Shown: positions 260 through 3,946 of the stretch, piece by piece
Layout of the letters: every line of letters begins with the position of its first letter
Position numbering within the stretch: the first letter of the stretch is position 1
Source of the DNA: a virus
DNA length: 29,738 nucleotides
Virus record (IMG/VR): IMGVR_UViG_3300045135_001303
Span: 1-29,738 of that record
Reading direction: 5' to 3' (one strand)
Program-made: the position numbers and the translations under genes
The notes under the pieces: generated by a model
The model's input: the letters and a program-made list of their open reading frames with translations, nothing else
Told to the model about the DNA's origin: nothing
Databases searched by the model: none

Positions 260-432
260 AAACTCTATTTACAACGACATACTGTTACTCTATCGTCAGT
301 CGGTATCTTCGGTGATAAAGTCGAAGAATCCCAACCTATTGTCGAAAGCGTTTGACCCAGCTGTTTCACATAAGAATCACCAAATGTTACTTGGCCGCGT
401 TACTACCCAATATGTCTGTGAAAATAGAGTTT
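260..432 (-). ncRNA. Structured leader RNA of the tRNA operon (candidate)
   Basis: The 300 bases between tRNA-Asn and the next gene hold no convincing ORF. Read on the minus strand they hold an 11-bp helix joining 422-432 to 260-270 (AAACTCTATTT with AAATAGAGTTT), which encloses about 150 nt. A hairpin inside has a 6-bp stem (TCTTCG/CGAAGA). The 3' limit abuts tRNA-Asn. The same bases around 422-429 can pair instead with 443-449 (CTCTATT on the + strand), so two alternative folds are possible. Function unknown: it may be a stable small RNA, as T4 makes from its tRNA cluster, or an attenuating leader. Confidence 0.4.
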
Positions 433-475
433 CTATTTCCATCTCTATTATCGGTTTAAACCTAAGAGAAATTTT

Positions 476-491
476 AAATTATCAAAGAGCG
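476..491 (-). promoter_or_regulatory. boxA-like antitermination element
   Basis: On the minus strand this reads GCTCTTTGATAATTT. That differs at two positions from the rRNA-leader boxA GCTCTTTAACAATTT of gammaproteobacteria, which loads NusB/S10. It lies about 25 nt downstream of the -10 box at 517-522 and ahead of an untranslated tRNA transcript, where such an element would be expected. A short GATC-loop-GATC inverted repeat precedes it. Confidence 0.4.
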
Positions 492-2778: not shown

Positions 2779-2852
2779 TGGCGAAGGTACAAGGAATCGA
2801 ACCCTGATCTACGGAGTTGGAAGCCGTCGTGTTACCATTACACCATACCAAC
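2779..2852 (-). tRNA. Irregular tRNA: Trp (CCA) or Gly (TCC)
   Basis: T arm, D stem (GTGT/ACAC) and CCA end are normal. The acceptor stem GTTGGTA/TACCTTC has two adjacent U-U mismatches. The anticodon stem is ACGG/CCGT around the 9-nt stretch CTTCCAACT. If the closing C-U mismatch is accepted, the loop is TTCCAAC and the anticodon CCA (Trp); by similarity to phage tRNA-Gly loops (CTTCCAA) it would be TCC with one extra base 3'. Its 5' end overlaps the 3' end of the gene at 2838-3086. It may be decaying or non-functional. Confidence 0.6.
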
Positions 2853-3086
2853 ATATTGGCTGGAAGGGCAGGACTCGAACCATTCATCTACAGTGTAAAA
2901 CTCTGGAAGGTTCGCAAACTTATAAAACTTTTTTCCACAAAATTCAAACTCGTTATCAGCTTCTTCGTTAAGTTTTTCAAAGTCTAGCAAAGCTGCTTCT
3001 GGCGAAGAATACATAATTGGATATGATTCTGTAGAAAAATAAGTACAATCATCAGTAAATTCACAAACCATAACAATTCGTTGCAT
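2838..3086 (-). CDS. Hypothetical protein with a tRNA-derived C-terminus, 82 aa
   Basis: Starts MQRIVMVCEFTDD; soluble, acidic, unrecognised. AAAGG lies 9 nt before the ATG. The body ends with TVDEWFE, a common terminal motif of such small phage proteins. After that the frame runs on through a tRNA 3' fragment (2857-2880) and stops inside the 5' end of the tRNA at 2779-2852, so roughly the last dozen residues are translated tRNA sequence. This suggests that the original stop was lost in a recombination event that also removed a tRNA 5' half. Confidence 0.7.
   Translation of the reverse strand: MQRIVMVCEFTDDCTYFSTESYPIMYSSPEAALLDFEKLNEEADNEFEFCGKKFYKFANLPEFYTVDEWFESCPSSQYVGMV
2857..2880 (-). 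pseudogene. tRNA 3'-end remnant
   Basis: Carries the CCA, discriminator G, acceptor 3' strand CCTTCCA, T-stem 3' strand CCTGC and T loop TTCGAGT of a tRNA. The T-stem 5' strand no longer pairs beyond two bases, and no D arm, anticodon arm or 5' acceptor strand is present. Upstream sequence is the coding region of the 82-aa gene, whose last codons run through this remnant. Confidence 0.75.
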
Positions 3087-3106: not shown

Positions 3107-3190
3107 TGGAGGTCGGTGCGTGAATCGAACACGCTACTTTTCAGTGCTATGGATTTGCAATCCAACCCCTTACCATCCGGGCCACCGACC
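3107..3190 (-). tRNA. tRNA-Cys-like (anticodon GCA) with extended variable region
   Basis: Acceptor GGTCGGT/ACCGACC perfectly paired, anticodon stem TGGA/TCCA with loop TTGCAAA, T stem GCGTG/CACGC with TTCGATT, discriminator T, encoded CCA. The variable region is about 14 nt and can form ACT-GAAA-AGT. Position 8 is G instead of U and the D stem is only 3 bp. Unlike the standard tRNA-Cys at 1900-1976, this is an intermediate between class I and class II. Confidence 0.85.
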
Positions 3191-3205
3191 AATTCTATTT
3201 TCAGC

Positions 3206-3303
3206 TGCACTACTTGTGGACTCGAACCACGGTTGCCCGTCGGCAAATGAGGACCACCTCACGAACGGAATCGAACCGTCTACCTCCCATTATTCATAGT
3301 GCA
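3206..3303 (-). ncRNA. 98-nt multibranched RNA with two T-loop hairpins
   Basis: On the minus strand: closing stem TGCACTA/TAGTGCA (7 bp); a 17-nt linker; hairpin ACGG-TTCGATT-CCGT; hairpin TGAGG-TGGT-CCTCA; hairpin TTGCC-GACG-GGCAA; hairpin GTGG-TTCGAGT-CCAC; 3 nt; closing stem. All stems are fully paired and separated by only 1-3 nt. Two hairpins carry tRNA T-loop sequences, yet there is no anticodon arm and no CCA. It lies in the tRNA array between tRNA-Cys-like and the promoter at 3460-3488. Probably a stable phage small RNA, perhaps tRNA-derived; function unknown. Confidence 0.6.
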
Positions 3304-3459
3304 TGTGAAAACAGAATTAACTGTTTCTTCTGGGATTTTTCAGCTTACGCTTCCATCCTCCAGGACGCCCATTTGAGTTTGTTTAGAGTGGTTACTCGCA
3401 GTCTCGTTCCGCACATCCACTTTTGAGAAGATTGATATTATCTCTTCGTTCTCATATAC
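3304..3459 (-). other. Untranslated leader between promoter and RNA genes
   Basis: About 150 nt transcribed from the promoter at 3460-3488. The only ORF of note is 23 codons (3345-3416, starts MCGTRLRV) with a poor ribosome site, which I do not call. A short inverted repeat AAACAG/CTGTTT lies at its 3' end. No other structure recognised. Confidence 0.4.
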
Positions 3460-3488
3460 ATCCTAACACAAAAAAGACAGGATGTAAA
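3460..3488 (-). promoter_or_regulatory. Promoter for the RNA cluster below 3450
   Basis: TTTACA (3483-3488), 17-bp spacer, TAGGAT (3460-3465). The -10 is weaker than at the other promoters, and the AGGGG extension is missing. It would transcribe the 98-nt RNA, the Cys-like tRNA and the 82-aa gene. Confidence 0.55.
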
Positions 3489-3499
3489 CAACTATTTTC

Positions 3500-3571
3500 T
3501 GGTAGTAGCAAAAAGATTCGAACTTTTCCTAGACGCTTATGAGACGTCCGTCTAGACCAACTAGTGCTACC
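3500..3571 (-). tRNA. tRNA with CAT anticodon (Met or Ile2), short
   Basis: 72 nt. Acceptor GGTAGCA/TGCTACT (G-U first pair), anticodon stem GACGT/GCGTC with loop CTCATAA, T stem AAAAG/CTTTT, encoded CCA, short D arm (TAG/CTA). It is not an initiator, because position 1 pairs. Without lysidine information Met and Ile(CAU) cannot be told apart. A terminator ends only a few bases before its 5' end. Confidence 0.88.
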
Positions 3572-3901: not shown

Positions 3902-3906
3902 AAATT

Positions 3907-3939
3907 TGGTACTCCCACCCGGATTCGAACCGGGACGAG
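3907..3939 (-). pseudogene. tRNA 3'-half remnant
   Basis: An intact T arm (CCCGG/CCGGG with loop TTCGAAT), acceptor 3' strand TGGGAGT, discriminator A and CCA, but the next tRNA's CCA lies only 8 nt upstream. The whole 5' half (acceptor 5' strand, D arm, anticodon arm) is gone. Probably a deletion between tRNA genes. Confidence 0.8.
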
Positions 3940-3946
3940 TATTTAT

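Follow-up and report, generated by a model that had tools for sequence, protein, structure and literature searches.

A two-T-arm RNA in a viral tRNA cluster is probably one of the interchangeable cargoes carried in phage RNA cassettes

The window analyzed here is a 29.7-kb viral fragment (29,738 nucleotides) whose 17 tRNA genes all lie on the minus strand, and the question raised by this locus is what is encoded by the 98 nt at positions 3206-3303, which lie between tRNA-Met (3500-3571) and tRNA-Cys (3107-3190). The first-pass annotation had described this stretch, without stating a strand, as a closing stem with four hairpins, two of them T-loop-like. All of these elements are present on the minus strand, on which we read the feature because of the tRNA genes, the polarity of the T-loop UUCGA, and the orientation of a promoter-like site. 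The 98-nt extent contains the elements but stops short of a 2x2 loop and, beyond it, a 13-bp outer helix; the full unit is 128 nt (3318-3191, minus strand), comprising the outer helix, the 2x2 loop, and an 8-bp inner helix. Within the inner helix, the order from 5' to 3' is TGCACTAT, a 15-nt segment containing AUGGGAGG, T-arm 1, two hairpins, T-arm 2, AA, and GUAGUGCA (Table 1). The 3' end of the 128-nt unit touches the first base of tRNA-Cys.

The description of the 98 nt as far from random did not stand for that stretch by folding energy (z of -1.86 on the plus strand and -1.65 on the minus strand, with 10 to 11 of 200 shuffles folding equally well), but it did stand for the 128-nt unit, which has an MFE of -48.2 kcal/mol (z -4.56; 0 of 200 shuffles as good), and by covariation. 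Using the DUF458/YkuK-like neighbor protein (840-1325) as a query led to 27 related contigs, and a protein query with the 385-aa neighbor returned no relatives. Five contigs (L318-L322) carry the 98 nt in a form identical to that of the window, though their DUF458/YkuK-like protein is only 87% identical; the copy in L323 is 82% identical. Further homologues (L382/L405, L351, and L347) were retrieved by a covariance model. Beyond this family, a covariance model gave nothing better than weak matches in 98 other loci (best E of 0.027). From a plain MAFFT alignment of five distinct homologues, made without knowledge of the structure, RNAalifold recovered 38 pairs, which make up the two closing helices, the two T-arms, and the two hairpins, and 16 of these pairs show two-sided compensatory changes. 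A hand structural alignment of three distinct sequences, drawn up with the structure already in mind, comprised 43 pairs; 120 of its 129 cells are paired, and compensation is seen at 12 pairs, which are spread over all six helices. Inner-stem changes in this alignment include A-U/G-C/C-G and C-G/U-G/U-A. The outer helix of L351 has a wholly different sequence and, as read by eye, is still paired at 12 of 14 positions; thus, the frame sequence is replaceable while the helix is kept. These comparisons make it almost certain that the structure of closing helix, two T-arms, and two hairpins is real.

Neither ARAGORN nor the tRNA model RF00005 matched a tRNA at 3206-3303, even at E values up to 10. 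The window RNA resembles tRNA in its canonical T-loops, its 7-8-bp closing stem, its location in a tRNA cluster, and its D-loop-like GG segment. In contrast to tRNA, it has two T-arms (UUCRANN loops) and lacks a D stem and an anticodon arm, the T-loops being its only 7-nt loops, with N/U at the equivalents of positions 37/38; the acceptor-type stem is present but extended by the 2x2 loop and the 13-bp helix, and CCA is absent from the DNA. The absence of an anticodon arm and CCA, noted in the first pass, is borne out.

The helices that close the window RNA recur in other phage tRNA clusters. A helix-loop-helix frame search of all fetched loci yielded ~62 distinct cassettes at ~65 loci, with the frame consensus TTCTRTTTTCA-CA-TGCAC... 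...GTGCA-GY-TGAAAAYAGAA, in which the TTTCACA and G.TG positions are nearly invariant. The window RNA shares this frame, with an outer helix ending in UUUUCA/UGAAAA, a CA/GY 2x2 loop, a 6-8-bp inner helix, and the strand of the tRNA genes. T-arms were counted in a set of 62 cassettes and genomic contexts in a set of 63 that includes a probable chance match (L208). The finder requires TTTCA and misses frame variants such as that at position 7539 of L351; some loci came from T-arm-biased scans, and most cassettes came from frame or neighbor searches. Cassettes occur in one to three copies per locus (the window contains a second one), and 61 of 63 have tRNA genes on their own strand no more than 1.5 kb away; none has tRNA genes on the opposite strand only. 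The pattern TTTTCACATGN70-100GCAGYTGAAAA matched 34 stretches among viral contigs, and the same pattern had 21 matches in 257 Gb of prokaryote genomes (85,000), none of which passed the stem test. We also considered a short leader peptide starting at a conserved ATG in the frame and rejected it, since the reading frames are scattered in length (1 to 43 codons, or open) and the ATG is thus not coding.

TABLE 1 Positions of the RNA elements and neighboring features in the window
Feature	Coordinates	Strand	Evidence or remark
Predicted sigma-70-like promoter upstream of cassette, TTTACA-17 nt-TAGGAT, extended -10	3460..3488	-	Consensus match only
Predicted transcribed leader, conserved element CGAAGAGATAAYATCAATCT...GGGCGTCCTGGAGGATGGAAGCGTAAGCTGAAAAATCCCAG	3319..3455	-	Core identical in 10 viral contigs
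Outer stem, 5' strand, AATTCTGTTTTCA	3306..3318	-	Paired to 3191-3203, with covariation between the strands
2x2 internal loop, 5' side (CA)	3304..3305	-	CA in 98-100% of cassettes
Inner (acceptor-like) stem, 5' strand, TGCACTAT	3296..3303	-	Perfect 8 bp with 3206-3213
5' single-stranded segment, D-loop-like, GAAUAAUGGGAGGUA	3281..3295	-	GG invariant in five homologues
T-arm 1, GACGG UUCGAUU CCGUU	3264..3280	-	Stem covaries; loop TTCRANT in five homologues
Hairpin 1, GUGAGG UGGU CCUCAU, GG in loop	3247..3262	-	Three compensated pairs
Hairpin 2, UUGCC GACG GGCAA	3233..3246	-	Loop sequence the same in five homologues; one compensated pair
T-arm 2, GUGG UUCGAGU CCAC	3216..3230	-	Three compensated pairs; loop TTCGANT, exception L347
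Inner stem, 3' strand, GUAGUGCA	3206..3213	-	Pairs with 3296-3303
2x2 internal loop, 3' side (GC)	3204..3205	-	First base G in all cassettes, second mostly T or C
Outer stem, 3' strand, TGAAAATAGAATT	3191..3203	-	Adjoins tRNA-Cys
tRNA-Cys(GCA), next gene	3107..3190	-	tRNA gene call
rRNA-type boxA-like site upstream of second cassette, CGCTCTTTGATAATTTA	475..491	-	Sequence motif
Second cassette, upstream of tRNA-Asn, with another, T-arm-free cargo closed by GACATA/UAUGUC	261..431	-	33.7 bits, E of 3.8e-5

Inside the constant frame, the interiors fall into ~35 types when grouped by shared 8-mers. A comparison of L317 with the window illustrates the exchange: the leader is 94% identical and the tRNA-Cys flank 100% identical, and the cargo is 39% identical (shuffled mean, 40%). 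The tRNA-Cys site is occupied by 12 cassettes with at least eight cargo types, types recur across contigs, and four cargoes (c1, c4, c10, and c11) are each found before different tRNAs. Covariation extends to other cargoes, including the one-arm cargo c1 (8 of 28 pairs) and a three-arm cargo (L316, L463, and L338). As judged from these sequences, the window RNA is very probably one of the exchangeable cargoes that phages carry in such a cassette; the initial reading was right about a structured non-tRNA RNA but missed the much larger family of interchangeable cassettes.

Among the 62 cassettes, there are 33 hairpins with a 7-nt T-loop, versus 0.02 expected in shuffles, and only one anticodon-like loop. 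No T-arm was found in 41 cassettes, one in 12, two in 6, and three in 3. In the multi-arm cargoes, a UGG-bearing segment or loop precedes nearly every T-arm (i.e., AUGGGAGG and GGUGGUCC in the window cargo and UUGGUAAGG, CUUGGUGAC, and UUGGUGUAGC in the three-arm cargo). In tRNA, the GG of the D-loop docks on the T-loop, and for this reason we read the UGG segments and T-arms as serial elbow modules in which T-loop and GG may dock into putative elbows. Since two-thirds of the cassettes carry no T-arm, elbow mimicry cannot serve the whole class.

Promoter-like sites of the TTTACA/TTGACA-17 nt type were recognized by eye at the equivalent place in L316, L317, L318, and L323. The window-type leader stands before cassettes carrying six different cargoes; it folds unremarkably (z -0.44), has no Rfam match, and is possibly an antitermination or processing leader. 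An rRNA-type boxA-like leader occurs 50-150 nt upstream of 20 of the 63 cassettes and in none of the shuffles; the window cassette at 3191-3318 has the conserved leader and no boxA. Comparison of the NrdA and DUF458 proteins places phages of Ruegeria and Rhodobacter (~149 kb) as the nearest cultured relatives found, with Ruegeria pomeroyi DSS-3 as a host, and the cassette-bearing contig L338 encodes an alphaproteobacterial tmRNA, which together make alphaproteobacterial hosts plausible.

Other unusual tRNA-like RNAs were observed in the window and in related loci. A separate, second class has an acceptor AGUCAGG/CCUGACU, a Leu-type D-arm, a T-arm, and a hypervariable middle (total, ~50-190 nt), mostly without an anticodon arm. 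It comprises 146 distinct elements at 114 loci (L031, L039, L120, L175, L202, L213, L252, and ~107 others), with up to 5 per locus; 114 elements have a D-arm-like start, 26 are called as tRNAs by ARAGORN, and only 6 have a canonical anticodon arm. This class looks like a natural tRNA scaffold with variable RNA inserts. Outside the frame, L034 (9940-10102, minus strand) contains four T-arms within one closed 211-nt unit; in L112 (1966-2024), an additional T-arm domain comes after a tRNA-Met, ahead of the acceptor-strand closure; and L113 (430-527) has a tRNA-like RNA with three T-arms. A 122-nt tRNA-Gln annotated in the cultured Ruegeria phage RpAliso (OR257569.1, 1101-1222; L494) has two T-arms inside one acceptor stem. 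Two cassette cargoes (L374, 2750-2863; L425, 950-1056) resemble a circularly permuted tRNA, with the T-arm first, the D-arm last, and the frame stem in the place of the anticodon stem. Directly after tRNA-Leu, a lone tRNA 3' half (T-arm, acceptor strand, and CCA) is present in the window (3905-3946, minus strand) and in L316 (~3208-3246), and the T-stems of the two differ by a compensatory change; a split tRNA was rejected here, as there is no 5' partner nearby. A tRNA-Val-like 3' fragment (2856-2900, minus strand) overlaps the end of an 82-aa open reading frame (2838-3086).

An Rfam search of the window at relaxed thresholds returned the flanking tRNAs only, with no match for the window RNA, in line with its first-pass description as a possible new family. 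No cassette overlapped the Rfam matches listed (150 of 194) for 15 other loci. Likewise, BLAST searches found no relatives of the region among phage records and no match to twelve concatenated cargoes among 50,697 cultured-phage records, and no description of the cassettes appeared in the literature searched, which covered neither preprints nor most subscription journals. We regard the cassette family as undescribed so far. Because tRNA finders, open reading frame callers, and Rfam all pass over the cassettes, they are invisible to automatic annotation.

Several known systems share parts of this design. The stable non-tRNA RNAs of T4, species 1 and 2 (rnaC and rnaD; 119-139 nt), are encoded where a phage tRNA cluster ends, and the last element of species 1 is a T-arm (CCGGG UUCGAAU CCCGG), with no anticodon arm evident. 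The suggestion that the window RNA is their analogue holds for its non-tRNA nature and its location in a phage tRNA cluster on the same strand but fails for structure, as species 1 has a single T-arm, species 2 has none, and neither has the frame or the 2x2 loop; no sequence similarity to rnaC or rnaD was detected. GOLLD and ROOL are structured phage RNAs of several hundred nucleotides that are often located near tRNA islands and form nanocages (PMC12286853); they share the niche but are far larger. Bacterial pre-rRNA combines boxA with a leader-trailer helix, and the 27-bp helix of 23S leaves an 8-bp H1 (PMC10250234). The cassettes resemble it in the long helix formed by complementary flanks, the short closing helix, and the boxA-like leader found in a third of them, whereas their cargo is tiny, phage encoded, and exchanged, and their processing is proposed by analogy. 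Phage tRNAs, including some with altered anticodon loops, counter tRNA-cleaving defenses, and T5 tRNA-Tyr acts against retron-Eco7 (PMC11555353, PMC10264068). These, too, are encoded in phage tRNA clusters and act against tRNA-attacking host systems, but they are functional replacements for the cleaved tRNAs, unlike the window RNA, which cannot decode.

Our main reading, to which we assign a probability of about 0.45, is that the window RNA is a small structured non-coding RNA acting as an elbow mimic that interferes with host proteins binding the tRNA elbow, since an anticodon-less RNA with two elbows can compete only for proteins that grip the elbow of tRNA. The cassette would be transcribed at the head of the tRNA operon, and the boxA-like leader, where present, would give antitermination, as in an rRNA operon with its leader-trailer helix. 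Cleavage of the outer helix by RNase III-like enzymes and by those that process tRNAs would leave a stable RNA that the inner helix closes, with RNase P, acting at the 5' end of tRNA-Cys, releasing the cassette's 3' end; we infer such high, antiterminated expression and release by RNase III and RNase P from the rRNA analogy. Each T-loop would then dock on a nearby GG loop, producing two elbows and no anticodon (three elbows in relatives), and these would occupy elbow-recognizing host proteins, for example enzymes that modify or process tRNA or defense nucleases that target it; docking and occupation are the least certain steps. The fast swapping of cargoes may reflect an arms race, which would be expected to produce quick exchange of conserved cargoes within a fixed frame. 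The more far-reaching proposal that the phages maintain an exchangeable arsenal of elbow-mimicking RNAs in an rRNA-like processing frame, disabling tRNA-dependent host defenses or tRNA-handling enzymes, is possible but doubtful.

Some alternatives assign the cassette a role without elbow mimicry. It could be a cis-acting maturation or insulation element whose helix and T-arms recruit RNases III, P, and Z to cut the leader from the first tRNA, the released RNA having no function. The position between leader and tRNA, adjoining the latter, the boxA-like leaders, and the frame being the most conserved part all fit this explanation, but pure processing does not need ~35 unrelated interiors conserved with covariation, most tRNAs of the same clusters have no cassette, and T-arm-free interiors are no rarer than T-arm-bearing ones; we consider it unlikely. 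A regulatory RNA that acts by base pairing or protein binding (e.g., a sponge, an antisense RNA, or a translation regulator), with T-arms serving only for stability or nuclease protection, is a still less likely candidate: varied interiors with unpaired segments would suit it, as would the stabilizing modifications that T-arms would draw, yet the unpaired segment here is short (15 nt) and, unlike a changing guide, conserved in several distinct homologues. Improbable, too, is a mobile RNA cassette in which the inverted-repeat frame is a substrate for recombination or retro-homing that spreads between tRNA sites with a selfish or neutral cargo. The single frame at many tRNA sites, the exchange breakpoints at the frame, and the variable copy number per locus agree with mobility; compensatory changes inside the cargo, however, indicate selection on RNA structure, and homologous recombination through the conserved flanks suffices for exchange.

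The other alternatives derive the feature from tRNA itself or from chance. In an unusual tRNA-Ser(CGA) or tRNA-Leu(CAA), the first hairpin would be an anticodon arm that reads UUCGANU by coincidence. Arm 1 does occupy the position of an anticodon arm, and ARAGORN calls some two-arm matches tRNA-Ser or tRNA-Leu. Nevertheless, the window RNA itself is called by neither ARAGORN nor the Rfam tRNA model, it has no D stem, its closing stem continues for 13 bp further, and relatives carry three such arms. Anticodon loops of tRNAs have a purine at position 37, whereas the homologues have U, C, or A at that position and always U at position 38, and we hold this origin to be highly improbable. The idea that the feature represents two decayed tRNAs, as the first-pass annotation had considered, or mere chance draws on the half-tRNAs present in the cluster (3905-3946 and 2856-2900) and has next to no probability, as compensatory changes in the homologues maintain the closing helices, the hairpins, and the T-arms. 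The 21-bp closing helix is intact, the 16 compensated pairs refute decay by covariation, and identical copies persist in relatives with a diverged neighbor protein.

The cassettes bear on why phages carry tRNA clusters and on what role the non-tRNA RNAs of these clusters play, those of T4 included. The ~62 related loci combine a constant frame with ~35 exchangeable, structurally conserved interiors, and in several of these the elbow of tRNA is multiplied and the anticodon dropped; they make the question directly testable. The cassettes suggest an unrecognized, fast-changing viral RNA toolset aimed at the host tRNA machinery.
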